Shown: positions 14,113 through 48,698 of the stretch, in pieces
Position numbering within the stretch: position 1 is the first letter of the stretch
Layout: every line of letters starts with the position of its first letter
Assembly: GCA_002401455.1 (NCBI GenBank)
Contig: NVTE01000002.1
Coordinates: forward strand, 149,860-213,859
DNA from: Alphaproteobacteria bacterium
Lineage (GTDB): Bacteria > Pseudomonadota > Alphaproteobacteria > Sphingomonadales > Emcibacteraceae
Direction: 5' to 3'
DNA length: 64,000 nt
Notes under the pieces: model-generated
The model's database searches: none
What the model was told of the DNA's origin: nothing
The model's input: only the letters and a program-made list of their open reading frames with translations
Made by a program: the position numbers and the translations under genes

Positions 14113-14499
14113 TTAAACCATTGCAGTTGCTTCGATTTCTATTTTCGCCCCCTGCTCTACAAGTCCAGCAATCTGGATGAGCGACATGACCGGGTAAGTA
14201 TTTCCCATCACCTCACGATAGACCGCACCGAGTTGTTTCTGGTTATCCAGATATTCCTGCTTATGGGTCACGAACCAGGTCAGTCGAACAATATGTTCCG
14301 GCCCGGCATCACATTCTTTCAACACGCTGAGAATATTTTTCAAAGCCTGCTTCACCTGATCCACCAAGGCATCTGACTCAAACTCTTCCTTCTCGTTCCA
14401 GCCCACCTGACCGGCAACAAAAACCATATCACCTTTGGCCTTGATGCCGTTTGAATAGCCTTTAGGCCGGGGCCAGTTTGGCGGTTGCAATATTTCCAT
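14113..14499 (-). CDS. RidA/YjgF-family protein
   Basis: This 128-residue protein has the RidA fold signature (FVAGQVGWNEKEEFE near the N-terminus, C-terminal VMSLIQIAGLVEQGAKIEIEATAMV). Family members hydrolyse reactive enamine/imine intermediates, but several paralogues act in degradation pathways with unknown chemistry. The start ATG follows GGAGAG. It lies 28 bases after korB on the same strand and before the terminator, so it is probably co-transcribed with the 2-oxoacid:ferredoxin oxidoreductase. I cannot confirm the deaminase arginine without an alignment. Confidence 0.88.
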   Translation of the reverse strand: MEILQPPNWPRPKGYSNGIKAKGDMVFVAGQVGWNEKEEFESDALVDQVKQALKNILSVLKECDAGPEHIVRLTWFVTHKQEYLDNQKQLGAVYREVMGNTYPVMSLIQIAGLVEQGAKIEIEATAMV

Positions 14500-14527: not shown

Positions 14528-15361
14528 TCAAACCTCAAATTGTTTTTGAATTTCCGTGATATCGCCTTTTTCCTCACCGCATGAAAAACGGTAGGGCTCC
14601 CGAGTTCCCCGGTAAAGAACACCTGTGTTAAAGCCGTCATCGGACATGAGACGCCGGGCCGCCCGCGCCGGGTCATCGGTCTCCGGCACCATGGCCTCAT
14701 GAACTTTTTCTTTCCAGGCCTTCTGATCCGGCCGGAAGGTGACACAGGGACTTAATATCTGAACAAAGGAAAATCCGGGATGCTCGATCGCGTCGGCAAT
14801 GACACTTGCCGTACCCTTCACATCACCGGAAAAGGTCCGGGCTATGAAGTTGGCCCCGGAAGCCAAAGCAATCACCAAGGGGTGAAACGGCGACAGGCCG
14901 GTGCCGCCCGGGGATAAGGCACTGTCCCAGCTGGGATCTGTGGTCGGGGACGGCTGCCCCTTGGTCATGCCATAAACCTCATTATCCATAACGATATAGG
15001 TCATATCCGTATTGCGCCTGCAAGCATGTAGGAAATGGTTGCCGCCAATGGAAAAACCATCCCCGTCGCCGCCGGCGGCAATCACCGTAAGCTCTGGACG
15101 GGCGACCTTAACCCCGGTCGCCACTGCCAGCCCCCGGCCATGAATGGTATGAAAGCCGTAGGTATTGGTATAGGCCGGTATCCGGGATGAACAGCCAATC
15201 CCAGAGATGACAGCGATATTTTTCGGGTCCAGTTTCAGCTTGGCAAACGCCTGGGTCACTGACATCAGAACATGATAATCACCGCAACCCGAACACCATA
15301 CCGGCTTCAGTTTGGTTTTATAGTCACTGGCTTTGAATTTTTTTGGGGTTAACTCGTTCAT
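14528..15361 (-). CDS. korB: 2-oxoacid:ferredoxin oxidoreductase, beta subunit
   Basis: This 277-residue thiamine-diphosphate-binding subunit belongs to the KorB family. Cysteines in WCSGCGD, GIGCSSR and ILSPCVTF are placed to bind the [4Fe-4S] cluster, and GGDGDGFSIGG plus the following DNEVYGMTKGQPSPT form the ThDP/Mg and catalytic-loop region. With the alpha subunit it oxidatively decarboxylates a 2-oxoacid, most likely 2-oxoglutarate, to the CoA ester and reduces ferredoxin. Its ATG at 15361 overlaps the korA stop in ATGA, indicating translational coupling. It is divergent from the benzoyl-CoA reductase operon, where reduced ferredoxin is consumed. Confidence 0.92.
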   Translation of the reverse strand: MNELTPKKFKASDYKTKLKPVWCSGCGDYHVLMSVTQAFAKLKLDPKNIAVISGIGCSSRIPAYTNTYGFHTIHGRGLAVATGVKVARPELTVIAAGGDGDGFSIGGNHFLHACRRNTDMTYIVMDNEVYGMTKGQPSPTTDPSWDSALSPGGTGLSPFHPLVIALASGANFIARTFSGDVKGTASVIADAIEHPGFSFVQILSPCVTFRPDQKAWKEKVHEAMVPETDDPARAARRLMSDDGFNTGVLYRGTREPYRFSCGEEKGDITEIQKQFEV

Positions 15362-17106
15362 AGCGCGTTCCATTCTTTAAGGATATCAACAATTTCTCCG
15401 GGTCGAATAATCAGCGGTCCGGGTCGGCGGAAGGACTTGATTTCACCCGGCATATCGTAATGTGCCCGCAGCAGTTTTAGAAACTGCCCGGAATGGCTCT
15501 GCTCAACGACAAGTATACGTTTTGCGCCTTTCAGGGCCTGATCGAATTGCAGCGGCAACGCCGGCAACAACAGACGAATAGCCACCAGCTTGCAGTCAAT
15601 GCCCTCTGCCTTCAGACGCTCAATGCCTTCACGCACGGCATTAGTCGTCGAGCCCCAGGTCAGCACCACAAGCTCACACCCCTCATCACCTTCCACATCG
15701 GCCCAATGGTCGCCGTAATTGAAATCGGCAACCTTTCGGTCCCTCTTATCCATCTGGTCCCGGTGATCTTCCATCAGGGTAGAGGGCAGGCCCTTGGGGT
15801 TATGCTCCAGCCCGTCCGCGGTATATTGCCCACCCGGCGTGCCCGGCAGGGTCATGGCCGAGACCCCATCCGCGGTCACCGCGTAGCGCAGGTAATCCTC
15901 TGTCGGTGCTTTTTCCACAAGGCGCTGGGCCATGAAGGAAATATTGGCTGGCGGATCAATGATGGTACTGGCTTGGCCCATAAACTGATCGGACAGAACG
16001 ATGGCCGCCGTCTGCATGGCTTCCGCCAGATAAACAGACCACTGGGTGGTGAAAATACAATCCTCAACCGAGGTCGCCGCCGTCACAATATGAGGCGCAT
16101 CCCCGTGCAGGCCGTAAACCGCAATATTCAGATCCGTCTGCTCAGATTTGGTCGGCACACCCGTTGATGGCCCACCCCGCATCACATTGACAATCACCAC
16201 CGGCGTTTCCGATGACACCGCAAGGCCAATGCCTTCCATCATCAGGGAAAGCCCCGGGCCTGAGGTTGCGGTCAGGGAAGGTCGGCCGCCGAAAGACGCA
16301 CCAATGGCCATATTGATAGAGGCCAGTTCGTCCTCGGCCTGGACCAGTGTACCTCCCACCTTTTGCAGGTTCGGGGACATCCATTCCAGGACCTCGGTCG
16401 CCGGCGTGATGGGATACGCCGCCACAAACCGAATGCCGCCCCGAAGAGCGCCAAAACCGGCGGCCTGATTGCCACTGATCAGCCATCTTTTAGGGTGACC
16501 TGTGTCGTCGTCGCTAATCGTTGCCACTTTTACCGGCGATGTCACCTCAACCGCCGCCTGATAACCGGCCCGGACCGCCGCCCGACTGGCTGTTACAGCG
16601 GCGTCACCCTTTTTTCTGAGTTTCTTGGCAATTATCTCATTAATCGGAGCTTCTGAAAGCCCAATCAGGGCAGCGACCAATCCCAGTATAACCATATTGG
16701 CCCGCCCGCCATCCACTGCGGCCGCCAGCTCCCCGATGGGAACCTCAACCACCCGTGCGCCCGAGGCTGTAAGAATTTCCGGAATATCGCCGGTCGCCGG
16801 ATCGGTAATGATCAGACTGTGTGGACCCAGAGGAACTTCCCCGGCAAAACGCTCCGCCCCTTTCCAGTCTACCGCCACCAGAATATCAAAGGTATCATCG
16901 ACACAATGAACCGGTCGGCTGGATAACCGCAGCAGGGCAGCCGCCTCGCCACCCCTGATCTGTGGCCCTACGGTCCGGGTCATCAGGCCGTAAAGGCCGG
17001 CCTTGGTTGCCGCCTCCAGCATCATATTTCCCGCCGTCATCACACCGGCTCCGCCACTGCCGACCATGGCCACTGAGACAGACGTATTTTGATCTCCTTC
17101 GGTCAT
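15358..17106 (-). CDS. korA: 2-oxoacid:ferredoxin oxidoreductase, fused gamma-alpha subunit
   Basis: This 582-residue protein has an N-terminal gamma domain (about 1-185: VGSGGAGVMTAG, TVGPQIRGGEAAALLR) fused to the pyrimidine-binding alpha domain (about 205-580: FVAAYPITPATEVLEWM, EDELASINMAIGASFGG, TSGPGLSLMMEG). This gamma-alpha fusion with a separate beta subunit is the architecture of KorAB-type enzymes, including the one that supplies ferredoxin electrons to benzoyl-CoA reductase in Thauera (established). Here the gene faces away from oah-bcrCBAD-fdx across a 356-base regulatory region. The substrate, 2-oxoglutarate, is inferred from family and context. Confidence 0.92.
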   Translation of the reverse strand: MTEGDQNTSVSVAMVGSGGAGVMTAGNMMLEAATKAGLYGLMTRTVGPQIRGGEAAALLRLSSRPVHCVDDTFDILVAVDWKGAERFAGEVPLGPHSLIITDPATGDIPEILTASGARVVEVPIGELAAAVDGGRANMVILGLVAALIGLSEAPINEIIAKKLRKKGDAAVTASRAAVRAGYQAAVEVTSPVKVATISDDDTGHPKRWLISGNQAAGFGALRGGIRFVAAYPITPATEVLEWMSPNLQKVGGTLVQAEDELASINMAIGASFGGRPSLTATSGPGLSLMMEGIGLAVSSETPVVIVNVMRGGPSTGVPTKSEQTDLNIAVYGLHGDAPHIVTAATSVEDCIFTTQWSVYLAEAMQTAAIVLSDQFMGQASTIIDPPANISFMAQRLVEKAPTEDYLRYAVTADGVSAMTLPGTPGGQYTADGLEHNPKGLPSTLMEDHRDQMDKRDRKVADFNYGDHWADVEGDEGCELVVLTWGSTTNAVREGIERLKAEGIDCKLVAIRLLLPALPLQFDQALKGAKRILVVEQSHSGQFLKLLRAHYDMPGEIKSFRRPGPLIIRPGEIVDILKEWNAL

Positions 17107-17369
17107 ATCACTCTTCCTCTTCTTCCTGTCATTGGTTTCTTTATGTGCAAACTTTTCAATGCATCACTGAAAATCTGTCAATTTTGATTTCAACCTGAAG
17201 TATTTTGAAAATTTATTATTTCAGGCCTTGACCTTTAATTCGGTATTGTGGTACTTAATTACTACTTTAATGAGTCATTGCCGCTTCGTCAACCACTGTT
17301 ACACAATAAAAAAGAGATGACAGAAGAGAAGCAGAGCAATTGGACCGACAGAATTAATCAGGGCACTTA

Positions 17370-17462: not shown

Positions 17463-18575
17463 ATGTCGTCTATCGATCTGGTAAATCATAATCTGGTAAG
17501 TGAAATTGACACGCCGGGCGTTATCATAGAAAAGCGCCCCGCGAAAACCCCTGAGGGGCAAGTGGTCGAGGGCCTTTATAACTATTGGATCATCCTGGAC
17601 AATCCCGCCCAATATAACTCTTACACCACAGAAATGGTGAAAGCCGTTATCCTCGCCTTCCGGGAAGCCAGCACTGCCCGCGATGTGGTCGCCGTCGTCT
17701 TTACCGGCGCCGGAGACAAGGCCTTCTGCACCGGCGGCAATACAAAGGAATATGCCGAATATTATGCCGGCAACCCTCAGGAATATCGTCAGTATATGCG
17801 CCTGTTCAATGATATGGTCAGCGCCATCTTAGGCTGTGACAAGCCGGTGATCTGCCGGGTGAACGGCATGCGCATTGGCGGTGGCCAGGAAATCGGCATG
17901 GCCTGTGACTTTTCCATCACCCATGATCTGGCGAAGTTTGGCCAGGCCGGACCAAAACATGGCTCAGCCCCCATCGGCGGCGCCACCGACTTTCTGCCCC
18001 TCATGATCGGCTGTGAACAGGCCATGGTATCGGGCACCCTGTGTGAACCCTGGTCAGCCCATAAAGCTTACCGCATGGGCATCGTGGCGGACATCGTTCC
18101 GGCCCTGAAAGTGGACGGCGAATTTGTTGCCAACCCCCTGGTGGTGACGGAACAATATCTGGATGGATTTGGCAAAATCATTCTGGGGGAAGCCAAATCC
18201 GGTGACGCGTTGGCCAAGGGCAAAAATATGTTGAGATCTGGTGAAGTTGACCTGAGCCTGCTTGACGCGAAGGTCGAGGAATTCTGTTCTAAATTTGTCA
18301 ACACCTTCCCCGACTGTATGACCAAAACCCTGGAAGAACTGCGCAAGCCCAAGATTGATGCCTGGAATGCCAACAAGGAAAATTCCCGCGCCTGGCTTGC
18401 CCTGAACATGATGACGGAGGCCAGAGCCGGTTTTCGTGCCTTTAACGAACCTGTGGGACGGGACCGGGAAATTGACTTTGTCGCCCTACGTCAGGCATTA
18501 GCCCAAGGGCAACCCTGGACTTCTGAATTCACGGAAAGCCTGATGCCTGCGGCAAAAACAACCAAGGAGAAATGA
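17463..18575 (+). CDS. oah: 6-oxocyclohex-1-ene-1-carbonyl-CoA hydrolase
   Basis: This 370-residue enzyme of the crotonase superfamily matches the Oah/BamA ring-opening hydrolase in length and motifs: NPAQYNSYTTEMVK, the first oxyanion-hole loop (AFCTGGNTKEYAEYYAGNP) and GMRIGGGQEIGMACDFS. It hydrolyses the cyclic oxo-enoyl-CoA to 3-hydroxypimelyl-CoA, the ring cleavage of anaerobic benzoyl-CoA degradation. A consensus AAGGAG precedes the ATG. It is the first gene of the run oah-bcrC-bcrB-bcrA-bcrD-fdx. BamA-type genes are established markers of anaerobic aromatic degradation. Confidence 0.93.
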   Translation: MSSIDLVNHNLVSEIDTPGVIIEKRPAKTPEGQVVEGLYNYWIILDNPAQYNSYTTEMVKAVILAFREASTARDVVAVVFTGAGDKAFCTGGNTKEYAEYYAGNPQEYRQYMRLFNDMVSAILGCDKPVICRVNGMRIGGGQEIGMACDFSITHDLAKFGQAGPKHGSAPIGGATDFLPLMIGCEQAMVSGTLCEPWSAHKAYRMGIVADIVPALKVDGEFVANPLVVTEQYLDGFGKIILGEAKSGDALAKGKNMLRSGEVDLSLLDAKVEEFCSKFVNTFPDCMTKTLEELRKPKIDAWNANKENSRAWLALNMMTEARAGFRAFNEPVGRDREIDFVALRQALAQGQPWTSEFTESLMPAAKTTKEK

Positions 18576-18578
18576 GAC

Positions 18579-19742
18579 ATGGCAACCAGAGAAGATATTA
18601 TCACCCGCTGTCAGGCCCTCTATGATGACCTTGACTTCACCGCCGCACGCGACTGGAAAGATGCCAAGGAAGGACGCCATGTCATCGGTTTTATGCCCAT
18701 GTATGTGGCCCGCGAAATTATCCATGCTGCCGGCATGCTGCCTCTTGGTATTCTGGGTGGCGGCGATCAGCTGGAAGTTATTCAGGGCGACGCCTATTAT
18801 CAGAGTTATATCTGTCGCATTCCGCGCTCGACCGTTGAACTTTTACTCACCGACCGTCTGGACTTTGTCGACGGCATGCTGTTCCCCAGCATCTGCGATG
18901 TGATCCGCAACCTGTCGGGCATGTGGAAGATGCTGCGCCCTGAAGTTTACTCGCATTATTTCGACGTTCCGCAAAACTATATGAGAGATGTGGGCGGTGA
19001 GTTCTATATGCATGAGCTTAATGTTCTCCGGCATGATCTGGAAAAAATCGGCGACATTACAATTACCGATGAGGCCCTGAAGAATTCCATCGTGGTTTAT
19101 AATGAAAACCGCCGCCTGACCCGCGAACTCTATAAATTCCGGTCAGACACGCCGTGGCTGGCCCCCTCGTCCGAGGTTTACCTGATTAACCGCGCTGGTA
19201 TGCTAATTCCCGTGGAAGATCACAATCAGCTGATCAAGGACTATATTGAAGCCGCCTCTATTGAAGATCGTCCGAAACGCGATAACAGCCGGGTTGTTGT
19301 CTCTGGTTCCTTCTGCGAGCAACCACCGCTCAACCTGATCAAGTCCATTGAGATGTCAGGCTGTTATGTGGTCGATGATGATTACATGCTGGTCAATCGC
19401 TGGTTTACCAAGGAAGTCCCGACAGATTGCGACCCCATTCAGGCCCTGTCCTATACCTTCCTAGAAGCCTCGGTCAAGATGCCGTCCTGCTTTGAGCCGG
19501 ATGAAGACATCAAAGGCCTATATCTGGTGGATACCGTCCGGGAGAATAATGCCGAGGGCGTGATCTTCGCCGCGGCCAGCTTCTGCGATCCGGCGTTGCT
19601 GGAACGGCCTCTCCTTCAGGATGTCCTCAATGATGCGGACATTCCCCACATCAGTTTCAAATACGCTGAAAACACCGGGCAGATGCAGCCCATCCGTGAA
19701 CAGGCAGGTACCTTTGCCGATTCGATCAAACTTTGGAGTTAA
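18579..19742 (+). CDS. bcrC: Benzoyl-CoA reductase subunit C (BadD-type)
   Basis: This 387-residue protein belongs to the 2-hydroxyacyl-CoA dehydratase (HgdB/FldC-like) superfamily. Cluster-binding cysteines are visible in SYICRIPRST, FPSICDVIRN and AASFCDPALLERP, and the family's terminal signature is ENTGQMQPIREQAGTF. With BcrB it forms the reductase module that passes single electrons at very low potential onto the benzoyl-CoA ring. Length agrees with Thauera BcrC and Rhodopseudomonas BadD (about 386). It starts 3 bases after oah, with GGAGA upstream. Confidence 0.94.
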   Translation: MATREDIITRCQALYDDLDFTAARDWKDAKEGRHVIGFMPMYVAREIIHAAGMLPLGILGGGDQLEVIQGDAYYQSYICRIPRSTVELLLTDRLDFVDGMLFPSICDVIRNLSGMWKMLRPEVYSHYFDVPQNYMRDVGGEFYMHELNVLRHDLEKIGDITITDEALKNSIVVYNENRRLTRELYKFRSDTPWLAPSSEVYLINRAGMLIPVEDHNQLIKDYIEAASIEDRPKRDNSRVVVSGSFCEQPPLNLIKSIEMSGCYVVDDDYMLVNRWFTKEVPTDCDPIQALSYTFLEASVKMPSCFEPDEDIKGLYLVDTVRENNAEGVIFAAASFCDPALLERPLLQDVLNDADIPHISFKYAENTGQMQPIREQAGTFADSIKLWS

Positions 19743-19746
19743 TTCT

Positions 19747-21042
19747 ATGAGTGCACCCGTAAGAAAACCGTCAACTGACGTGCAAAAAGATGCCTCCATG
19801 GCCAAACAGAAGGACATGATTGAAAGCAACTTTAACCGGCTTGGCAATGTAAAAAATACCGGCGAGAAAGTCTCCTATACTTTTGTCCCCGGCAACCTAA
19901 ATGAACTGATCATGTGTTTTGACATGGTCGGCAATTACCCCGAAATCAATGCCATTCAGAACGGCCTGCGCAAAAAGTCGGGCGGCATGATCATGGAAGC
20001 TGAAAAATGGGGCCATTCCGAAGATGTCTGTACCTATGTTAAATCCGACATCGGCATGATGCGCAAAGGTAATATTGGTCCCACAGGCCTGCCCATTCCG
20101 GAACCTGACATCCTGATGCTCAGCTATACAGGCTGTTATACCTTCCTGAAATGGTTTGAACTTCTGCGCCATGAATATAAATGTGAAACCGCCATGCTGC
20201 ATGTGCCCTATACCGCCGATGGTGTGATCACAAAATCCATGACTGACTATGTGGTCAAGCAGTTGAAAGAGGAAGTGATCCCCAAATACGAAAAAGTCAG
20301 TGGCATTAAATTTGATATTGACCGTTTGCGGGAGAATATGGCCCTTTCCGCCAAGGCAGAAGATGATTTTGTCTGGGTACTGGAATCAGCCAAAAACAAG
20401 CCCTCACCCATTGATGCCTATTTTGGCGGCATCTATTATATCGGGCCAATTTTCACCGCCTTCCGGGGGACGGAACTGGCCGTAGATTACTATAAAACCC
20501 TGCGGTCGGAAATCGAAGAACGTATCCGCAAAGGTCAGGGCCCAATCACCCCAGAAGGTGAGATGAAGACTGAAAAATACCGTATCGTCACCGAAGGACC
20601 ACCCAACTATACCAGCATGCGCGAATTCTGGAAAATGTTCTATGACGAAGGCGCGGTCGTCGTTGCCAGCACCTATACCAAAGTGGGCGGCACTTATGAT
20701 TACGGTTTCCGCCATGATCCGTCACGGCCGCTGGAAAGCCTGGCTGAGTATTGCATGCATTGTTACACCAACCGCAACCTGCCCGAACGGACCCGGATGC
20801 TGGAAGGATATATCAATGATTATGAAGCCGATGGTCTGCTGATCAACTCGATAAAAAGCTGCAACAGTTTTGCCGCCGGGGAGTTGATGATGATGCGCGA
20901 AGTTGAGAAACGCACCGGCAAACCAGCCGCGTTTGTGGAAACCGACCTGGTTGACCCGCGTTATTTCTCCGCTGCCAACGTCAAGAACCGTCTGGAAAGT
21001 TATTTCCAGATGATCGATCAAAAACGTCGTGCTGGCGTATAG
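19747..21042 (+). CDS. bcrB: Benzoyl-CoA reductase subunit B (BadE-type)
   Basis: This 431-residue second subunit of the reductase module has the HgdA/B-like fold with cysteines in LSYTGCYTFLKW, EYCMHCYTNRN and NSIKSCNSFAAGE. With BcrC it binds the substrate ring and a [4Fe-4S] cluster. The chosen ATG at 19747, 4 bases after the bcrC stop, fits operon spacing; a longer in-frame extension back to 19621 would overlap bcrC deeply and is not needed by the family length. Confidence 0.94.
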   Translation: MSAPVRKPSTDVQKDASMAKQKDMIESNFNRLGNVKNTGEKVSYTFVPGNLNELIMCFDMVGNYPEINAIQNGLRKKSGGMIMEAEKWGHSEDVCTYVKSDIGMMRKGNIGPTGLPIPEPDILMLSYTGCYTFLKWFELLRHEYKCETAMLHVPYTADGVITKSMTDYVVKQLKEEVIPKYEKVSGIKFDIDRLRENMALSAKAEDDFVWVLESAKNKPSPIDAYFGGIYYIGPIFTAFRGTELAVDYYKTLRSEIEERIRKGQGPITPEGEMKTEKYRIVTEGPPNYTSMREFWKMFYDEGAVVVASTYTKVGGTYDYGFRHDPSRPLESLAEYCMHCYTNRNLPERTRMLEGYINDYEADGLLINSIKSCNSFAAGELMMMREVEKRTGKPAAFVETDLVDPRYFSAANVKNRLESYFQMIDQKRRAGV

Positions 21043-21057
21043 GAAAGGGAACAAGAC

Positions 21058-22374
21058 ATGAAATGTTTTATTGGAATTGACCTCGGCTCGACAACCACCA
21101 AAGCGGTTATCATGACAGAGGACAGAGAGATCATCGGACGGGGGATTACCAACTCCCGGTCAAACTATGACACCGCCAGCCGAGTGGCAAAGCAGGAAGC
21201 CATGATTGGTGCTCGCTTTACCCTGCTGCGCAGAAACCTTAAAGGCAATAAAAAGCTTGGCGACCGGCAGGAGGCGTTCCTGGATGATCTGGAACGTAAT
21301 TTTCGCCGGGAGCAGTTCGTTGAACAGCTGGACGACCTGAAAGCCACCTGTCTGCGCAGTTCAGAAGGCGAGCGGTTCGATGACGTCAGGTCAACCCTGA
21401 CAGAAGTTCTGGACAAAGTATTTGTTCAGTTACGGGAAGAATCCCTTGAGCTTTTTGCCAAGGGCGCGACCCGCAAATCAGACTTCTTCCGCGACATCGC
21501 GGGGGGACGTTTCCTGTCCCTGTCTGAAGAAATTTCAAGAGATGCGGGCCTGAAATATGATTATGCCCTCAATGTGTATGATAAATCGATCATTGAGGTC
21601 GAAAACCGACCGCCAGCAGATAACCTTGAAGGAAAATTCCTTAACGGCCTGCAAAATCTGATTAATGAATCCCCGGAGCTGGGCATTAGTTTCGACGATG
21701 TCCAGGGGCCTGTTAAAGATGCCTTGTCCGTCGAGCTGGAAGAAACCTTTGTCGTCGGCACCGGCTACGGGCGGGTTCGCCTGCCCTTCCCCAAAGAGCA
21801 TATCCGGTCAGAAATCCTCTGCCATGGACTGGGCGCCCATATGATGTATCCCGGCACCCGTACCGTGCTTGATATTGGTGGGCAGGACACCAAATCCATT
21901 CAGATAGATCAAAACGGCGTGGTCGATAACTTTCAGATGAATGACCGCTGTGCCGCTGGTTGTGGCCGTTACCTTGGCTATATCGCCGATGAAATGAACA
22001 TGGGTTTGCATGAACTGGGACCCATCGCCATGAAATCCACCAAGGCGGTTAAGATCAACTCAACCTGCACCGTATTTGCCGGTGCGGAATTGCGCGACAG
22101 GCTGGCACTGGGTGAAAAACGGGAAGATATTCTGGCCGGGCTTCACCGGTCCATCATCCTGCGGGCCATGTCGATCATCGCACGGTCCGGCGGCATCACG
22201 GATGAATTCACCTTCACCGGCGGCGTGGCCAAGAATGAGGCGGCCGTGAAGGCGCTGCGTGAGCTGGTCAAAGAAAACTACGGCGACGTCACCATCAATA
22301 TCGATCCTGATTCAATTTACACCGGTGCGCTGGGCGGCGCCGAATTCGCCCGCCGCGCAGTAATGGAGGCTTAA
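21058..22374 (+). CDS. bcrA: Benzoyl-CoA reductase subunit A, ATPase/activator (BadF-type)
   Basis: This 438-residue protein of the acetate/sugar kinase-Hsc70-actin (ASKHA) fold starts with the phosphate-binding [15 protein letters not shown]. Cysteines in [12 protein letters not shown] and [13 protein letters not shown] are placed to bridge a [4Fe-4S] cluster with BcrD. Residues of about 50-215 form a charged helical insertion not present in BcrD; it is characteristic of the large Thauera/Rhodopseudomonas-type A subunit and separates it from the Azoarcus Bzd type. It hydrolyses ATP to drive electrons from ferredoxin to BcrBC. The final [12 protein letters not shown] is the family's C-terminal motif. 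Confidence 0.94.
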
Positions 22375-22375
22375 A

Positions 22376-23218
22376 ATGACATTAACAATAGGAATTGACG
22401 TAGGTACAGGTGCTGTAAAAACTGCCCTTTTTGAATTTAACGGCGATCAGATTACCTGGATTGACAAAATAACTGACCGGATCAGAAACCGGGAGCCCTT
22501 CAAGCTCGCTGAAGCCGCCTTTGACCATCTGCTGGAGAAGCACGGCTATACCCGCGATGACATTGACTATGTGGCAACAACCGGGGATGCGGAAAATATC
22601 CCCTATTCCACGGGTCATTTTTATTCCATGACCAGCCATGCCCGGGGGGCATTGTACCTGAACCCCAAAGCCCGGTCCCTGATGGATATTGGTGCCCTGA
22701 ACGGCAAAGCCATCAGCATGGACGAGCGCGGCAAAGTGCTGAAATATAAGATGACCAGCCAATGCGCCTCCGGGTCCGGACAATTCCTCGAGAATATTGC
22801 CAGGTACCTGGGCATTGGCCAGGATGAAATCGGCGAACTCAGCCAGAGAGCAGACAACCCGGAAGTTGTTTCCGGCATTTGCGCCGTGCTGGCGGAAACC
22901 GATGTCATTAACATGGTGTCCCGCAGCATTTCAGCGGAAAACATCCTCAAGGGTATTCATATTTCTATGGCAGCCCGCCTGATCAAACTGTTAAAATCCC
23001 TGAAGGTCAAGGAGGGTATCGTGATGTGCACCGGCGGGCTGGCCCTGGATACCGGACTGGTCCTGGCCCTGAACGAAGCCATGGCCAGGAATAAAATGGA
23101 TATGCCCGTAGTATCCCATGAGGATTCTATTTATGCCGGCGCCATTGGGGCCGCCATCTGGGGAAACTTCCGCCATAACAAGCTGGCCGAACTTGAAAAT
23201 CTGGCAAAAGCATCCTGA
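22376..23218 (+). CDS. bcrD: Benzoyl-CoA reductase subunit D, ATPase (BadG-type)
   Basis: This 280-residue ASKHA-fold ATPase begins IGIDVGTGAVKTALFEF and carries the cluster cysteines in TSQCASGSGQFLE and GICAVLAETD. It forms the electron-activating heterodimer with BcrA around one [4Fe-4S] cluster. The ATG starts one base after the bcrA stop, behind GGAGG. Length matches BcrD/BadG (about 280). Confidence 0.94.
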   Translation: MTLTIGIDVGTGAVKTALFEFNGDQITWIDKITDRIRNREPFKLAEAAFDHLLEKHGYTRDDIDYVATTGDAENIPYSTGHFYSMTSHARGALYLNPKARSLMDIGALNGKAISMDERGKVLKYKMTSQCASGSGQFLENIARYLGIGQDEIGELSQRADNPEVVSGICAVLAETDVINMVSRSISAENILKGIHISMAARLIKLLKSLKVKEGIVMCTGGLALDTGLVLALNEAMARNKMDMPVVSHEDSIYAGAIGAAIWGNFRHNKLAELENLAKAS

Positions 23219-23267
23219 TCAGGATTTAAATCAACCTGTGTGACCAATAATAAGAAAGGAAAAGATT

Positions 23268-23510
23268 ATGGCGTTAATGATCGTAGAAGCTTGCACCGCC
23301 TGTGATGCCTGTGAGCCAGCCTGCCCCAATGAAGCAATCAAGGAAGGCGATCCCATGTATATCATCGACCCCTTCAAATGCACGGAATGTGTCGGGGCCG
23401 ACGATGAGCCGCAATGCGTGCTGGTCTGCCCGGATGAATGCATCATCCCGAACCCTGAATTTGTCGAAAGTGAAGACGACCTCCAGGCAAAATATGACGC
23501 GATGAATTAA
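23268..23510 (+). CDS. fdx: 2[4Fe-4S] ferredoxin, benzoyl-CoA pathway type
   Basis: This 80-residue protein has two cluster motifs: CTACDACEPACP and CTECVGADDEPQCVLVCP. The widened second motif (CxxCx8CxxxCP) and acidic C-terminal extension are those of the Allochromatium-type low-potential ferredoxins. In Thauera such a ferredoxin carries electrons from KorAB to benzoyl-CoA reductase (established). It is the last gene of the oah-bcr run, 49 bases after bcrD with its own AAGGAAA ribosome binding site. I see no clear intrinsic terminator behind it. Confidence 0.92.
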   Translation: MALMIVEACTACDACEPACPNEAIKEGDPMYIIDPFKCTECVGADDEPQCVLVCPDECIIPNPEFVESEDDLQAKYDAMN

Positions 23511-24071: not shown

Positions 24072-25133
<1,062 letters not shown>

Positions 25134-25146
25134 TCAGTAATGTCTT

Positions 25147-25671
25147 TTATAAGGCGTCTGATCCCCGGGTCAGGGCCGCAACCCCGGTCCGCACGGCTTC
25201 CACCAGACCCACATCTTCCATCAGACGGATGAAGGCTTTGATCTTGTCGGTCTTGCCCGTCACTTCAAAGATATAGCTGTCAAAGCTGCTGTCGACGATC
25301 TTGGCCCGGAAGGCCTCAGCAATGCGCAGGGCCGCCTGTTGCTTCTCGCCCTGGCAATGAACCTTGATCAGCGCCAGTTCCCGCTCCACATGGGGGCCAT
25401 TCTCTGTCAGGTCACCGACCCTGTGCACCGGAACCAGCCGGTCGAGCTGGGCCTTGATCTGTTCAATGACCGGCGGTGTGCCGATGGTGACCACGGTGAT
25501 CCTGGACTCGGTCCCCTGTAGGTCAACCGGTGCCACGGTCAGATGTTCAATGTTATAGCCCCGGCCGGAAAATAGGCCAATCACCCGGGCCAGAACCCCG
25601 GCCTCATTATCGACAATGATCGACAGGGTATGACGGGCGGTAAGTTCGATTTCTTTATGAGTATGATGCAT
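25147..25671 (-). CDS. ilvH: Acetolactate synthase small (regulatory) subunit
   Basis: This 174-residue protein has an N-terminal ACT domain (TLSIIVDNEAGVLARVIGLFSGRGYNIEHL), the valine-feedback site, and the small-subunit C-terminal domain (EVTGKTDKIKAFIRLM). It activates the catalytic subunit and confers feedback inhibition. A GGGAG site precedes the ATG. It lies between ilvB (21 bases upstream) and ilvC. Confidence 0.96.
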   Translation of the reverse strand: MHHTHKEIELTARHTLSIIVDNEAGVLARVIGLFSGRGYNIEHLTVAPVDLQGTESRITVVTIGTPPVIEQIKAQLDRLVPVHRVGDLTENGPHVERELALIKVHCQGEKQQAALRIAEAFRAKIVDSSFDSYIFEVTGKTDKIKAFIRLMEDVGLVEAVRTGVAALTRGSDAL

Positions 25672-25692
25672 GTTTTTTTCTCCCGCAGTCGC

Positions 25693-27447
25693 TTATACCA
25701 GCGCCGCGCCGCCTTCAAATTCTGTTACGTCTTCTTCATCAGCCAAAATCATTTCGTTATGGGCTGCCCCGCTGGGCACCATGGGGAAACAATTGGCCAT
25801 CTTCGCCACCCGGCAATCGACAATCACCAGGCCCGGGGTTTCAATCATTTCCATAATGGCTGCGTCCAGGTCTTCCGGCTTTTCGACGAGAATACCGTGA
25901 GCACCGTAAGCCTTGGCCAGGGCAACAAAGTCCGGCAGGCCTTCTGAATAGGTCTCGGAATGGCGGCCGCCATGGTTCAGGTCCTGCCACTGGCGGACCA
26001 TGCCCATATATTCATTGTTGAGGATAAAAATCTTCACCGGCAGTTTATATTGCGCTGTTGTGCCCAGCTCCTGAATATTCATCTGGATCGAGGCCTCACC
26101 GGCCACATCAATCACCAGAGCATCCGGATGGGCGATCTGAACCCCGACCGCGGCCGGAAAGCCGTAGCCCATAGTGCCGAGCCCGCCGGAAGTCATCCAG
26201 CGGTTCGGATCTTCAAATTTCAGATACTGCGCCGCCCACATCTGATGCTGGCCAACCTCGGTGGTGAAATAAGTGTCCTTGTCCTGGGTCAGGGCCTGCA
26301 GACGCTCCAGGGCATATTGCGGCATGATGACATCATCGGATTGGCGATATTTCAGGCACTCCCGAGCACGCCAGCCTTCAATATCTGCCCACCAGTCATC
26401 ATAGGACTGCTGGCCTTCTTCCAGGACCGCCGCTTTCCATAATTTCAGCATATCCTCCAGAACATGGGCCACATCACCAACAACCGGCACATCGACCCGG
26501 ACGGTCTTGTTGATGGACGAGCGGTCAATATCGATATGAATTTTCTTGGAATTTGGCGAGAAGGCATCCAGCCGCCCGGTGACCCGGTCATCAAACCGCG
26601 CCCCGACACAGATCATCACATCACAGTCATGCATGGCATGGTTGGCTTCAAAGGTGCCGTGCATGCCGAGCATGCCCAAAAACTGTCTGTCGGACGCGGG
26701 ATAAGCCCCCAGCCCCATCAGGGTGCTGGTGATCGGGGCCCCGGTCAGCCGCACCAGTTCACGCAGCAATTGGGACGCCGCCGGACCGGAATTGATCACG
26801 CCGCCGCCGCTATAGAAAATCGGCTTCTTGGCCTTGACCATTAGCGCGACCGCCTCTTTGATCGCGTTGAGATCACCTTTTAATTCAGGCCGGTAGCTGC
26901 GATGTTTGATCGGGCCGCTATGGAGGTTGCTGCTGGTGAAAATCTGGACATCTTTTGGAATATCAACCACGACCGGACCCGGACGGCCACTGGTCGCCAC
27001 ATAAAAGGCCTCATGAATGACCTGGGACAGATTATCCACATCGCGCACCAGATAGTTATGCTTGGTACAGTGACGCGTGATGCCCACGGTATCGGCTTCC
27101 TGAAAGGCGTCACTGCCGATCAGATGAACCGGAACCTGGCCGGTCAGACAGATCACCGGGATCGAATCGAGCATGGCATCGGTCAGGCCGGTCACCGCAT
27201 TGGTCGCCCCGGGACCAGAGGTCACCAGAACCACACCCGGCTTACCGGTGGAGCGGGCATAGCCCTCTGCCGCATGGACGGCGGCCTGTTCGTGGCGCAC
27301 CAGAATATGGCGGATCTTATCCTGCTGAAAAATGGCATCATAAAGCGGAAGCACAGCACCACCGGGATAGCCGAAAATAACCTCGACACCCAAATCCACC
27401 AGGGAATTGATGATGATCTCTGCGCCGCTATACTCTTTGCCGGACAT
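25693..27447 (-). CDS. ilvB: Acetolactate synthase large (catalytic) subunit
   Basis: This 584-residue ThDP enzyme condenses pyruvate with pyruvate or 2-oxobutyrate. It has the N-terminal pyrimidine-binding domain with the catalytic Glu ([15 protein letters not shown]), the central FAD-binding domain, and the C-terminal diphosphate-binding domain. The motif usually read GDGS appears here as [15 protein letters not shown], a form I know from alphaproteobacterial enzymes, so it is not a defect. First gene of ilvB-ilvH-ilvC. The 254 bases upstream, up to miaA, are AT-rich and promoter-like; I see no obvious leader-peptide attenuator. Confidence 0.96.
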
Positions 27448-41718: not shown

Positions 41719-42354
41719 ATGACCAAACCCAACCGAAGAGTATTCCTTAAACTTGGCGCCGCCAGTGGCGCGGCCGGCCTGTTTTTAACGCCCGCCCAGG
41801 CTACCACGCTGACCCCATCAGAAGAAGCAGGCCCCTTCTATCCCGTGGTCGCTCAAAAAGACAAGGATCTTGACCTGACCAGGGTAGCGGGTCAGCAGGG
41901 CGTGGCCAAAGGGCCCGTCATCATCATAGAAGGACAGGTGCTGGATACCGATGGCCAGCCCCTCGAAAACGCCACGATAGACCTGTGGCAGGCAAATGCC
42001 GCAGGCCGGTATGCGCATCCCCATGACACCAACCCAGCGCCCCTGGACCCAAACTTTCAGGGGTGGGCGATCCTGCAGAGCAACAAGCAGGGCAAATTCC
42101 GTATCATAACAATCTACCCGGGGGCCTATCCCGCATCTGAAACATGGACGCGGCCACCACATATACATTTTAAGGTCAGCCGGAAAGAATATATTGAACT
42201 GACGACCCAGATGTATTTTCCAGATCAAAACCTTCATGAGGCGGACCATTTGCTGAAACGAAAAAGCAAAGAAGAAGCCAAACTTATGACAGCGTCAAAA
42301 ATTCTGGTCAGTCCGGAGACATATACCTACACCATTGTCCTGCAGAAGGCATAA
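41719..42354 (+). CDS. Tat-exported intradiol dioxygenase-like protein
   Basis: This 211-residue protein has a twin-arginine leader (NRRVFLKLGAASGAAGLF, cleavage near PAQA) and a mature beta-sandwich of the intradiol ring-cleavage dioxygenase family (TPSEEAGPFYPV; VLDTDGQPLENATIDLWQAN). Candidate Fe(III) ligands are present: Tyr in AGRYAHPHD, Tyr in YPGAYPAS, and both His of RPPHIHFKV. Known protocatechuate 3,4-dioxygenases are cytoplasmic, so a Tat-exported copy is less usual; exported family members of unknown substrate exist. AGGACGAGG precedes the ATG. Confidence 0.87.
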   Translation: MTKPNRRVFLKLGAASGAAGLFLTPAQATTLTPSEEAGPFYPVVAQKDKDLDLTRVAGQQGVAKGPVIIIEGQVLDTDGQPLENATIDLWQANAAGRYAHPHDTNPAPLDPNFQGWAILQSNKQGKFRIITIYPGAYPASETWTRPPHIHFKVSRKEYIELTTQMYFPDQNLHEADHLLKRKSKEEAKLMTASKILVSPETYTYTIVLQKA

Positions 42355-44158: not shown

Positions 44159-45259
44159 CTACTTCAGAGTCTCCCTCTGGATCATCCGCATGGATGACGT
44201 ACTTTGATCTCCGCAGCCCTTGGGCAGAAAAATCTGACCGGTTTTTGTCAGGGTATCAGGATCATAGGTCGCCACATCACAGGCGGCTCCGCCCACATAA
44301 ACTTGCTTCCCATCCGCCGAAATATTGACGGCATAATAGGTATGGTCCTGATCAATGCGCCCGGCCAGGGTGTGGGTCTCAAGATCAATTTTGGTCAGCT
44401 GGGTATAGGTCCCAAAGGCATGCTTGCCGGTGGGACTAACCACGGTGGAGAAAATCAGCACCGACGTATCTTCAAAATCATTGATCTCATATTTCCCCGT
44501 ATCCAGGTCCAATGTCATCAAACCGGTTTTATAGGCCCCGGGATCATCAGCGGCTTTATCGGTTTTCACCGAATAGACCGGCGTCGAGAAAATGTCCGTC
44601 TGATCCCACAGCGGCCAGAAATCAAGCACATCCGGCAATGACCGGTTTTTCAGGCTCCAGTTCCGCAGGGGAAGAGTCTCGACAATTTCGCCGGTCTGCG
44701 GGTTCATTTTATAGATATCAAAGCCCAGGGCATAAAGCCATTTATCATCCGTTGATTTCATCAGCATATGAATACGGCGCGGGGCCTCAAATGTACGAAT
44801 GGGCTCAGCCTTCAGGCCCGAAGATGTATCATAGACCGCAATCCGAGTCGGCAGCTGTTGATATTCCGACAGCATGATCCGGGTCGACAGCTGATAGACA
44901 TAAAGCTCCTTGCCGTCCCGGCTGATGTCAAAGGCATAAAAGGCCTGACGCCGGATATCACCTTTGATGAAGTCGGCGCGAAACACCTGCTCCCCAGTAT
45001 CAATATCAAGGCCAACGATGGACTTCATACGATTGGTCAGCACATAGACGATTTTGCCATCGGGTGACGGGGCGAAAGAAAATACCGTTCGCCCGGCGTT
45101 GGGAATTTCATGGCTGCGGACAACTTTTTGTTTTTTCATATCCAGAATATGAATAAAACCCGGCTTGGTCCCGGTGATCAGATATTCAGTATTTTCCGCC
45201 TGAACCCCTGTGGATAACAGAAAGACAGCCCCCAGAAACATCACTATTTTACGCATCAT
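44159..45259 (-). CDS. qhpB: Quinohemoprotein amine dehydrogenase, beta subunit
   Basis: This 366-residue protein has a signal peptide (ending near STGVQAEN) and a series of about seven WD-like propeller repeats (YLITGTKPGFIHILDM; FSFAPSPDGKIVYVLTN; VNISADGKQVYVGG), the fold of the QHNDH beta subunit that packs against the CTQ-bearing gamma subunit. The enzyme oxidises primary amines to aldehydes in the periplasm. Last gene of the operon, 15 bases after qhpC. Confidence 0.92.
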   Translation of the reverse strand: MMRKIVMFLGAVFLLSTGVQAENTEYLITGTKPGFIHILDMKKQKVVRSHEIPNAGRTVFSFAPSPDGKIVYVLTNRMKSIVGLDIDTGEQVFRADFIKGDIRRQAFYAFDISRDGKELYVYQLSTRIMLSEYQQLPTRIAVYDTSSGLKAEPIRTFEAPRRIHMLMKSTDDKWLYALGFDIYKMNPQTGEIVETLPLRNWSLKNRSLPDVLDFWPLWDQTDIFSTPVYSVKTDKAADDPGAYKTGLMTLDLDTGKYEINDFEDTSVLIFSTVVSPTGKHAFGTYTQLTKIDLETHTLAGRIDQDHTYYAVNISADGKQVYVGGAACDVATYDPDTLTKTGQIFLPKGCGDQSTSSMRMIQRETLK

Positions 45260-45274
45260 TTTATCCTGTTTATC

Positions 45275-45595
45275 TTATCGCTTCGGAAAGACATTGCCCA
45301 GCTCACGCCAATCGGCACCAGCACTGGATTTATTGGCATCCCAGTCCGGATAGCTATTCATCACATCGGGCACCTGGGCTGGCCACCAGCAGGGGTCGGA
45401 ACAGCCATAAAGATCGGCCTCCATAGGCTGACAGAGGGCCGCAACGCCACCAAAGGCATCCACTTCCCAGCCCGGGTCCATGGTTGACGCACAGCCGGCG
45501 ACGGTCTGCATGGCGACAACTTCCATCCTGTCCCCTTCACTGGGCGCGGTGGTCAGGGCGTGGGCTTTCAAATTAATCGGCTTTAAATGCTTCAT
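45275..45595 (-). CDS. qhpC: Quinohemoprotein amine dehydrogenase, gamma subunit precursor (CTQ-bearing)
   Basis: This 106-residue precursor carries an N-terminal leader of about 28 residues and all residues of the crosslinked mature subunit. Relative to the known mature numbering (offset 28) I see C35-E44, C55-D61 and C69-D77 for the three Cys-to-carboxylate thioethers, and C65-W71 for the cysteine tryptophylquinone cofactor, within the conserved [17 protein letters not shown]. It is a ribosomally made, heavily modified enzyme subunit. It starts 2 bases after qhpD, the radical SAM enzyme that installs the thioethers. Confidence 0.96.
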
Positions 45596-45597
45596 GG

Positions 45598-47070
45598 TTA
45601 TTTCCCCATATCAAGTGGGTTAAAGGTACGGTTGGTATTGAGCAGGGTACGCGGGCTGACATGCTGTTCAAAATAGCTCGGATTCTTATGGAGTATCTTG
45701 GTATAGACCCCGATGCCAAAATCAATCCAGTCGCGCATCAAATCACAATAGTGATAAGTCGGTTTGGTGATGTCGTCATAGGTGGCATAGGATTCATGAT
45801 AACAGCCGCCAGAACAGAGGTTCCTGATCCGGCAGGTATCGCACCAGGTGCCGTCCCGGTCGGCGCGCCCCTCAAGGAAGGCGCCGAGTTCTTTTTTCTT
45901 GATGCCCGTATCCACATTGCCGTATGTCTCAATGTCGGAGCCCGTGAACCGATGACAAAGGTTGAGCTCACCTTCGTGGTCCACCGCCAGCAATCCGATA
46001 CCCGCCCCGCAGGGCAAGGCTTTCTTGGTGCCTTCATAAAGATCGGTCATCATCTGATGCATGTTGGAGAAACCGTTGTTGCGGCCTTCCAGCGCCTCTG
46101 ACAGATAATGTTCGCCAAGCTTTTTCATATTCTCGAACACCTCATGCAATTCGTCATTGCTCAGGTTAAACATCGTCATATCGCCGGAGGTAACCGGGGC
46201 AAAGCCAACCTCGGCAAACCCAAGGTCATATTTCAGATGCTGGTGAATATCGACCACATTCGTCACCCCGGCGGTCAGGGTGACCCGGGCGCCGACCGGC
46301 CGGGCGGTATAACGCTCCAGCAGCATCCGGGCTTTCTTTGACACCACATCGTAGGTGCCCTTGCCGCCGATGGTCTTGCGGTTTTTGTCATGAACCGCCT
46401 TGGGTCCGTCCATGCTGATGGCAATGCCAAATCTATGGTCGTTCATGAAATCAATGATATCTTCAGTCAGCAGGGTGGCATTGGTGGTCACAGAGAAGTC
46501 GACCTTCTTGCCTTCTTCCGCACAGCGTTTTTCCGCATAGGCCACCGCGCTTTTGATCAACGGCATATTACTCAGCGGCTCGCCACCAAAAAACACCACA
46601 TTAACCCGGTCGCGGCTTTTGCCTTCCTTCAGCAAAAGATCAATGGATTTCTTCGCCACATCAAAGCCCATCAATTCACCCTTGGCCGGGGTCGTCAGGT
46701 CTTCCTTGTAACAATAGGTACAGCCCAGATTACAGCCGGTATTGACATTAAGAATGATGGTGCTGAGCGGGTAATTCTCAATCTTGATTTTATTATAATC
46801 CGCCCGGGCCGGCCCATCGCCCTTGATGATGTCCATTTCCAGGAAGTCCTCGATCACTTCCTTAATCAGATCAGGTGAGATCTTGTCCCGGAACCGGGCT
46901 TCCACATCGGCCTGACTGACGGTGCCTTTTTCCTTGAACAGGTCCAGAACCTGCCCTGAAACCCCGTCCAGGTCAAACAGGGACGTGGTCGGGATATGAA
47001 ATAATATTCGTTTGTCCCCCACGGTGACATCATGGGCGTTATGGGCGATATATTGTAGTCCTGTGGTCAT
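45598..47070 (-). CDS. qhpD: Radical SAM thioether-forming maturase QhpD
   Basis: This 490-residue radical SAM/SPASM enzyme has the SAM cluster motif [15 protein letters not shown] and a C-terminal SPASM cysteine series ([28 protein letters not shown]). It forms intrapeptide Cys-to-Asp/Glu thioether bonds in the QhpC precursor (established for Paracoccus QhpD). The ATG follows AGGA. It lies between qhpA and qhpC with spacings of 14 and 2 bases, so co-expression with its substrate is tight. Confidence 0.95.
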
Positions 47071-47084
47071 TCAACTATCCTGTC

Positions 47085-48650
47085 TTAACGAATTGGCGGC
47101 GTGTTCCAGCGCTGTACGGTGACAATCAGCTGGGCCTCGCCAGAAATTATTGTGTCCCCATCTGTAACCTGCGCGACAATCTTCAGATTCCCGGCATTAT
47201 TAGTGGCATATTTCCGGCTTGGATTTGGTCCGGCCGCCCCGGGCATAAAGGTGCCCTGCGCATTAATGGTTCCGGCGAATTCCACGTCCTTCATATGCTC
47301 AGCTTCTTCATCAAAGGCATGAAGCTGCCAGTCCGCCGACATTACACCGATTTTAATGTCACCGTCCTTGCCCGTCATATAGGCAACCGCCTCAAACTGT
47401 GCGGTGACCGGCGGGGTTTTACCGCCACCAAGCCGCGCGATAGTCCAGTCCGGCGTGACCTGAAGCCGGTCTATTTTATCATAAACAATAATTTCCGTTA
47501 CCGCTTGTCCCACAGTGACCACATAGGCCCCGGGCGACATATTTTTTCCCGCCGTGATCTTTACGGTCACGGACGTCGCATCCTGGCGGGTGACGTTCAG
47601 GCCAAGTCCCTTATCCGACGAGACTTTTCCCGTCAGGCCAATCCCATGCAGGGTAATTTCTTTCTCTTGACCAACACGGATATAGTCAGATGATTTAGCC
47701 AGGACTTGTGCCTCTGCGCCTGCCATACGGACCGCCTGAAACTCGCCGCCAATGTCATAATGAGCCGCCTGGTGCCAGCGCCCTGTCATCCGCATGCCGT
47801 CTTCGGATAGGGCATAGACTTCACGGGTTTCCGCGCCGTTCAGCATGCCTGAGGCCCGCCATTCATAGCCGGTATAGATCACCGCCTTGCTGTCCCCGGA
47901 CAGGGCACCCCCGGTCATGTCATACAAATCATAATCAGCCTTGTAAAAGTCGCCGTCCCGGGTGACTGTCATCATCCCTTGATAACCACCGATTCCCGGA
48001 CGATAGCCCGTAACCCGCCAGGACCCGGCGGGGCTTTTGTGATCCGCCCCCTTCCACGTGTCCCAGGCGTCGGTCTTGAACGGATAGAGTTCCGCCAGTT
48101 CCTTATAAGTTTCTGTGGTCACTTCCTGCCACCAGAAACGATCCCGGGAGCGGGCCTGATATTCCAGGGACGGAAATTGTCCCACATGGAAATGCATATG
48201 TTTCAGCCAGTCTTTTTCCGTCCGCCGTTGCAGCCCATAACGGGCATTGGTGTGACATCGACCACACAGAGCATCCAGATCGTCATTAACCGCAATATCA
48301 TTAAAGTGCGCCCGTTGTTCCAAAACATAACGGAAAGGTTCTGATTCTGACGGGGACAGACCATATTCTGCGGAGAGATATTTGATGATCGCAAAACGCT
48401 CATCACTGTCAATTTCCAGACCGTGGAGATTTTGCATCCGGAAGAGGGTCATGTCCCAGCCTTCCGGTGTCTTACGCACGTCGGATATGCGAGCCAGTCC
48501 GCCATCATCGGTTTCCGCATGGCAGGCGGTGCAATAATCATTGACCAGAGCCTTGCCTTGGACATCCTTTGCCAAGGAAGAAGAAGGTGAAAATGCGGAT
48601 AATGCCACCAGCATTACCCCAGATATAAACAGACGCGCTTTCCCGGACAT
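47085..48650 (-). CDS. qhpA: Quinohemoprotein amine dehydrogenase, alpha subunit (diheme cytochrome c)
   Basis: This 521-residue exported subunit has a signal peptide (ending near SSSLAKD) and two heme c motifs, CTACH and CGRCH, in the N-terminal cytochrome domain. Several beta domains follow (about residues 200-520), as in the crystallised enzymes. It transfers electrons from the gamma-subunit CTQ to an external cytochrome or cupredoxin. I chose ATG 48650, with gggaaa upstream; the ATG four codons earlier lacks such a site. First of qhpA-D-C-B. Confidence 0.93.
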   Translation of the reverse strand: MSGKARLFISGVMLVALSAFSPSSSLAKDVQGKALVNDYCTACHAETDDGGLARISDVRKTPEGWDMTLFRMQNLHGLEIDSDERFAIIKYLSAEYGLSPSESEPFRYVLEQRAHFNDIAVNDDLDALCGRCHTNARYGLQRRTEKDWLKHMHFHVGQFPSLEYQARSRDRFWWQEVTTETYKELAELYPFKTDAWDTWKGADHKSPAGSWRVTGYRPGIGGYQGMMTVTRDGDFYKADYDLYDMTGGALSGDSKAVIYTGYEWRASGMLNGAETREVYALSEDGMRMTGRWHQAAHYDIGGEFQAVRMAGAEAQVLAKSSDYIRVGQEKEITLHGIGLTGKVSSDKGLGLNVTRQDATSVTVKITAGKNMSPGAYVVTVGQAVTEIIVYDKIDRLQVTPDWTIARLGGGKTPPVTAQFEAVAYMTGKDGDIKIGVMSADWQLHAFDEEAEHMKDVEFAGTINAQGTFMPGAAGPNPSRKYATNNAGNLKIVAQVTDGDTIISGEAQLIVTVQRWNTPPIR

Positions 48651-48698
48651 GGATTTTCCCATATTTTGATATTAGATTTTTTTAATAGTATTGTAGAC

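Follow-up and report, generated by a model that had tools for sequence, protein, structure and literature searches.

The oah-bcrCBAD-fdx operon

The genome of an Emcibacteraceae bacterium, here designated G000, carries a predicted operon for benzoyl-CoA reduction and ring cleavage, oah-bcrC-bcrB-bcrA-bcrD-fdx, within a 64-kb window (the whole stretch of DNA that was analysed). We consider it very probable that this is an ordinary Bcr operon, that its partner genes dch (dienoyl-CoA hydratase) and had (6-hydroxycyclohexenoyl-CoA dehydrogenase) most likely fall in the part of the genome missing from the assembly, and that the pathway of the genus is composite in origin. The operon comprises six plus-strand genes at 17463-23510, identified by scoring the open reading frames (ORFs) of the window against family models with the curated NCBIfam equivalog bit scores as cut-offs. 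The gene oah (17463..18575) encodes the predicted ring-cleaving enzyme 6-oxocyclohex-1-ene-1-carbonyl-CoA hydratase/hydrolase (TIGR03200, 668 bits, cut-off 464) and is followed by the genes for benzoyl-CoA reductase subunits C (bcrC, 18579..19742; TIGR02263, 651 bits against 421) and B (bcrB, 19747..21042; TIGR02260, 810 against 487), the ATPase/activase subunits A (bcrA, 21058..22374; TIGR02259, 747 against 578) and D (bcrD, 22376..23218; TIGR02261, 443 against 313), and a 2[4Fe-4S] ferredoxin that is the probable electron donor (fdx, 23268..23510; NF033683, 110 against 86). Intergenic gaps measure 3 bases between oah and bcrC, 15 between bcrB and bcrA, 1 between bcrA and bcrD, and 49 between bcrD and fdx. 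The bcrB gene probably starts at the ATG at 19747, 4 bases past bcrC, and not at the ORF-list start at 19621. Divergent from oah, at 14528-17106 on the minus strand, lie korA (15358..17106; TIGR03710, 562 against 483) and korB (14528..15373; TIGR02177, 267 against 262), which encode a 2-oxoacid:acceptor oxidoreductase alpha subunit and a 2-oxoacid:ferredoxin oxidoreductase beta subunit and may supply reduced ferredoxin. In Thauera aromatica, KorAB provides reducing power to benzoyl-CoA reductase, according to an excerpt of the published work (PMC9973337).

The gene order and the Thauera-type identity proposed by a sequence-only reading of this DNA are borne out by these scores. BcrC, BcrB, BcrA and BcrD each exceed their own Bcr-specific equivalog cut-off, the ferredoxin gene and korAB stand alongside with fdx, korA and korB all above curated cut-offs, and several cysteines, a feature remarked on by that reading, are conserved in BcrB, BcrC and the BcrA/BcrD ATPase pair. 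With the window counted among the aligned sequences, Cys79, 106, 246, 262 and 336 of BcrC are unchanged in 78 of 78, four cysteines of BcrB in 84 of 84, and those of BcrA among 79 and of BcrD among 73 (72 at the second cysteine), and eight of the ferredoxin's cysteines are unchanged in 54 of 54. A long BcrA insertion, also pointed out, is present and is nothing unusual: residues 1-431 align with model positions 1-432 of 432 in TIGR02259, an end-to-end match by which the insertion is a normal feature of the family. Judged on family membership, the operon is an ATP-dependent Bcr-type class I benzoyl-CoA reductase with Oah, of the ordinary kind, its enzymes being assigned predicted activities. 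The models of the Bzd-type class I reductase stay below their cut-offs, with 114 of 454 bits for BzdN, 70 of 449 for BzdO and 140 of 380 for BzdQ.

BcrB was found in 15 of 196 genomes, the window's own included. At 94-96% identity it is present on seven contigs, four labelled Emcibacter and three only Alphaproteobacteria, all of which correspond to genomes of the genus through shared DNA or, for L042-L047, through fetched stretches. The G000 assembly yielded no 16S rRNA gene, and its placement relies on these contigs and on codes of genus kinship. A search of plasmid records with the BcrB of the window gave no match at E 1e-40.

The korA-oah intergenic region holds a near-invariant box of about 55 bases (17226..17280), a candidate promoter or operator, which all eight of the compared regions from the genus retain, one of them with an insertion of 8 bases, while the flanks diverge. 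When sought by weight matrix in 26 stretches, 12 of them genus stretches with had or dch (L169-L171, L173-L177, L180-L182 and L186), the box was present in three, the window, L172 and L195, each time upstream of oah. A far weaker resemblance occurs in L059 before oah (6748) and again at 16763. Promoter and terminator scans of the window lay near expectation (11 against 6.7 in shuffled sequence, standard deviation (sd) 2.4, and 10 against 7.4, sd 3.0) and were not used.

had and dch' at a second locus in the genus

The absence of dch and had from the entire 64 kb, also claimed from the sequence alone, is confirmed: ORFs of at least 50 amino acids match Had and Dch references with 22 bits at most, and the canonical arrangement of dch and had beside oah does not occur in the window. 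For comparison, the best 80 of 193 bcr loci by BcrB likeness to the window were considered, of which 68 were classified and 12 left out because their DNA ends too near bcrC; classification used small custom profiles on ORFs, by which frameshifted genes may be missed. Outside the genus, 62 loci extend far enough to be judged: in 37 of them bcr has had, oah and dch as neighbours, in 15 none of the three was seen nearby, and 10 carry partial sets. All six genus loci with enough flank have oah without had or dch, and the same layout is seen in the window, in a second copy of the operon in G011 (L199) and, as far as the contig extends, in G009 (L195). An operon without had and dch is a genus-wide trait. 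In one group of bcr loci (L054, L057, L061, L063, L071, L080, L082, L084, L092, L093 and L097), korBA is divergent from bcrC, and oah, had and dch were not found in the stretch.

Had, Dch and Oah were searched for in 20 genomes, 16 of the genus (including G000) and four others of the same order. Oah is present in 11 of the 16, and all 10 of these besides G000 have Had and a Dch homologue, designated Dch'. Had exceeds its cut-off in nine of the 10, the copy in G006 being in two pieces, and in 11 of the 16 genus genomes overall, in addition to the split G006 copy. The G003 Dch' is cut at contig ends, and Dch' retains 45 of 58 columns that are near-invariant in canonical Dch. Had and Dch' (short in G001) but not Oah were found in G001 and G002, which are 62% and 74% complete, and neither Had above the cut-off nor Oah was found in G010, G014 and G015, of which G014 has a partial BcrB. 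Against solved Had structures, the Had' of G007 scores 380 bits with 7qul and 377 bits with 7quy. The had and oah of G007 and of G009 share a contig, had being some 17 kb upstream, and in the other eight oah-bearing relatives the two genes are on separate contigs; contig positions place them at least about 395 kb apart in G013. G011, with 5% contamination, has two bcr-oah copies (C36, C13) and one had.

In G000 itself the best match to the Had model reaches 97 bits (cut-off 339), the level of generic dehydrogenases. Sub-cut-off matches of this kind are given by 13 of 14 control genomes for the Had model and 11 for the Dch model, and none exceeds the cut-off. The G000 assembly amounts to 2.08 Mb in 17 contigs and is 69.42% complete. 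The window carries ilvB, ilvN and ilvC at 24075-27447, and a G013 protein used as query (IlvD by its model, 1149 bits against a cut-off of 710) finds no IlvD in G000; as a positive control, the same query, run with another program, finds IlvD in six relatives at 84-100% identity. Similarly, G000 has no PF00384 match at E 1e-20, and all seven relatives have matches, with NuoG-sized open frames (680-692 amino acids) in six and only a 390-amino-acid piece in G005; the one such frame that was checked is NuoG (735 bits, cut-off 470). Because IlvD, which ilvB, ilvN and ilvC need, and the PF00384 proteins are both missing, sequence must be absent from the assembly. IlvD also lies near had-dch' in six of the 12 genus stretches (G013, G004, G007, G005, G009 and G002), and of the remaining six, four have little sequence on the IlvD side or end soon.

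As all 10 oah-bearing relatives have both genes and G000 is 69% complete with other genes missing, the had and dch of the window strain most likely lie elsewhere, in unassembled sequence, and the gap is most likely for the greater part an assembly effect, superimposed on a genuine genus-wide operon split. The sequence-only reading had left open whether the genes lie elsewhere or other enzymes handle the intermediates and had proposed a genome search; the search gave nothing above cut-off in G000 and a separate locus in the relatives, which favours the first option, and the second gained no positive support. That second option, which supposes a real loss of had and dch from the strain, the gap being filled either by generic enzymes (alcohol dehydrogenases and enoyl-CoA hydratases) or by Oah alone, appears quite unlikely. 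It would agree with the absence of any Had or Dch match above cut-off in G000, and an excerpt of work on Thauera describes Oah alone as processing a fluorinated dienoyl-CoA, with Dch and Had dispensable for 2-fluorobenzoate (PMC5742626). The same excerpt, however, describes conversion of the non-fluorinated dienoyl-CoA by Oah as negligible, so that without dch and had the operon alone would leave the benzoate pathway incomplete; moreover, the 10 relatives all keep both genes, and the simultaneous lack of IlvD and a PF00384 protein points to missing sequence. More generally, pathway gaps in partial genomes may be assembly effects.

The neighbours of had-dch' in the relatives may point to further functions of the locus. 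In G007 they include acyl-CoA-ligase-like and 2-dehydropantoate-reductase-like proteins, a short-chain dehydrogenase/reductase (assigned by eye), a fused 3-hydroxyacyl-CoA dehydrogenase/enoyl-CoA hydratase-like protein, and three molybdenum hydroxylase subunits matching 4-hydroxybenzoyl-CoA reductase models below cut-off (alpha 828 of 995 bits, beta 199 of 405, gamma 149 of 258), the gamma subunit agreeing a little better with a model of glyceraldehyde dehydrogenase (173 of 290 bits). G007 also has a HadB-like protein (213 of 750 bits) and an activase (159 bits, above the cut-off of 125), and G013 additionally has a thiolase. This gene set would be consistent with 3-hydroxypimeloyl-CoA undergoing beta-oxidation and with 4-hydroxybenzoate as an entry substrate. 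A HadB-like 2-hydroxyacyl-CoA dehydratase family protein of 392 amino acids with an activase, and with no second subunit adjoining, occurs in L171 (16141-18137), L169 (1-1931) and L195 (2583-4576), and in L171 and L195 the pair adjoins the molybdenum hydroxylase genes. No oah was found within the had-dch' stretches, the operon's own oah being about 17 kb on in G009 and G007, and the locus therefore seems to depend on the Oah that the bcr operon encodes. One unlikely possibility is that the HadB-like protein and its activase amount to a ring reductase or dehydratase of a new kind, ATP-dependent and with one subunit, that uses this Oah, in which case two ring-reduction routes of different ancestry would converge on one ring-cleaving enzyme.

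It is very unlikely that the operon acts on another aromatic acyl-CoA with another exit route while had-dch' acts in the breakdown of a different substrate and has a reductase of its own, made up of the HadB-like protein and activase. The presence of this pair in G007, G009 and G013, the 4-hydroxybenzoyl-CoA reductase-like molybdenum hydroxylase genes in several genomes and the score of Dch' below its family cut-off would suit such an arrangement, but the locus seems dependent on the bcr-operon Oah, and genomes of family f2 (see below) hold had'-oah-dch' and bcrCBA as one cluster. The chance that the subunits are 2-hydroxyacyl-CoA dehydratases instead of a ring reductase, which the sequence-only reading had named as a finding that would overturn it, is practically negligible by model scores: they belong to the same superfamily, but their scores with the HadB and HadC models are low (167 of 750 and 187 of 700 bits), BcrB (810 bits) and BcrC (651 bits) exceed their own cut-offs, BcrA matches its Bcr-specific model over its whole length, and oah adjoins.

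Ancestry of the two parts

The preferred reading, an ordinary operon completed by had and dch from a second locus, includes a composite origin of the pathway in the genus. In what follows, f2 and f4 denote two families that share their order with the window's genome; the trees include only ORFs longer than a fixed threshold, with L172 and L185 dropped as duplicates of L043 and L046. The two parts of the pathway differ in their affinities. The Had of the genus shares 65% identity with that of f2 (G050, G067) and 45-48% with canonical sequences, and for Dch the values are 54% and 36-37%. For the operon genes the order is reversed, with 73-75% (Oah), 74-77% (BcrB) and 64-68% (BcrC) identity to canonical sequences against 58%, 65% and 55% to f2. 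The branch uniting the genus with f2 in the Had tree has support of 100/100, and constraining the genus to group with the canonical f4 sequences of the same order is rejected for both proteins by the approximately unbiased (AU) test (p-AU 0.001 for Had, 0.0009 for Dch). The canonical sister of the genus varies by gene, being f4 in BcrB (89/75) and gammaproteobacterial loci in a quick BcrC tree, and is not resolved in Oah. A TetR-like gene, labelled by eye without an NCBIfam match, adjoins dch' in G050 and seven genus genomes and not in G007, G005 and G009; the G013 and G050 copies are 57% identical, which agrees with joint inheritance. The pathway of the genus thus appears to combine a canonical oah-bcrCBAD-fdx with a had-dch' pair, often with the TetR-like gene, from a deep separate lineage; the gene content, the genus-wide split and the two affinities are read from the sequences, and the acquired part and its donor are a matter of inference.

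Several points weigh against this reading as a whole. Neither had nor dch was found in G000 itself, where the best Dch-model match reaches 96 bits (cut-off 292.5), the level of generic hydratases, and their presence in the window strain is deduced. G008 and G011 have other genes for several kb on the relevant side of had-dch' and no IlvD there, and with IlvD near the pair in only six of 12 stretches, its absence from G000 shows a gap and no more than suggests that the had-dch' neighbourhood falls within it. Where nearly whole, Dch' of the genus reaches 167-208 of the 292.5 bits that TIGR03189 sets as its cut-off, and its exact activity is putative. With Oah, the test does not reject placing the genus with f2 (p-AU 0.31), owing to the great length of the f2 branch and the lack of an outgroup in the tree, and for BcrB the same grouping has p 0.033. 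The groups and hypotheses for these tests were named after a first quick tree, and no Thauera or Rhodopseudomonas is among the 80 comparison loci. Finally, the intergenic box was found by the weight-matrix scan in none of the 12 genus stretches with had or dch, and there is thus no sign of control common to both loci.

Predicted metabolism and known systems

In denitrifiers, as outlined in an excerpt of PMC5742626, a class I reductase yields the 1,5-dienoyl-CoA, Dch hydrates it, Had oxidises the product and Oah forms 3-hydroxypimeloyl-CoA. By analogy, KorAB would reduce ferredoxin using 2-oxoglutarate, ATP hydrolysis by BcrAD would drive electrons into BcrBC, and BcrBC would convert benzoyl-CoA to the 1,5-dienoyl-CoA, which Dch would hydrate and Had oxidise before Oah opens the ring. 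Bcr and Oah would come from the window operon, and Had and Dch from a second locus, the had-dch' pair, as in the relatives. The best match to benzoate-CoA ligase, in L017, scores 368 bits (cut-off 375).

The sequence-only reading considered the lineage not an obvious strict anaerobe and ring reduction in it therefore notable; this point is weakened by its relatives. PF00384 matches occur in open frames of 1206-1264 amino acids in seven of seven relatives, and the one checked by family model, a 1255-amino-acid protein of G004, is NarG (2209 bits, cut-off 1084). Six of these NarG-sized proteins have nearly the same N-terminus, and the one in G007 is truncated there. This suggests that the relatives respire nitrate. 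No NarG-sized PF00384 protein was found in G000, an incomplete genome. Emcibacterales are listed among orders of almost exclusively marine taxa in an excerpt of PMC8879329, and the operon would mean that marine Emcibacter-type bacteria possess a ring-reduction system independent of oxygen. In a library of Creative Commons-licensed PubMed Central text, no paper was found that names both Emcibacter and benzoyl-CoA reductase, which is weak evidence of novelty.

Elsewhere in the window, a small Rid-family-like protein is encoded at 14113..14499 on the minus strand (TIGR00004, 61.8 bits, below the cut-off of 106), and homologues sit near korB in several other bcr loci. A quinohemoprotein amine dehydrogenase set (alpha, beta, gamma and radical-SAM maturase; 44162-48662) has all four members above cut-off, and an aldehyde dehydrogenase (51441-52958) has a phenylacetaldehyde dehydrogenase model as its best match (664 of 850 bits); together they could form a route for aromatic acids into the pathway. 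An intradiol-dioxygenase-like protein (41719-42351; protocatechuate 3,4-dioxygenase beta model, 148 of 296 bits) hints at aerobic ring chemistry.

KorAB, the genus-wide split and the composite origin are additions to the earlier description of the locus. If the reading is right, a conserved catabolic operon can be cut and then completed by middle-pathway genes of other ancestry. The closest known systems include Bcr-type class I benzoyl-CoA reductase clusters such as that of Thauera aromatica. The Bzd/Mbd-type systems have a homologous BcrB-like subunit, but MbdO (9g87) and BzdO (8s02) score 213 and 68 bits with the window BcrB. Paramagnetospirillum kuznetsovii (L107) has the same subunits, ferredoxin, Oah and divergent korBA as the window, in the order korBA, had-oah-dch-bcrCBAD-fdx, and thus keeps had and dch in the operon, unlike the genus of the window (6/6 loci). 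A Woeseiaceae locus (L067, OFTM24) resembles the window in having korBA followed by oah-bcrCBAD-fdx and keeps had-dch apart, as a pair located about 6 kb past fdx; its Had falls on the canonical side of the tree, in contrast to the Had of the genus. The f2 genomes G050 and G067 supply the Had' and Dch' closest to those of the genus among the sequences found, and G050 the closest TetR-like gene. Their deep-branching loci (L178 in G050, L196 in G067) differ in forming one cluster, had-oah-dch'-bcrCBA, with divergent Oah and Bcr proteins; bcrD follows bcrA in G067, the G050 contig ends shortly past bcrA, and in G050 the tetR-like gene stands between dch' and bcrC.

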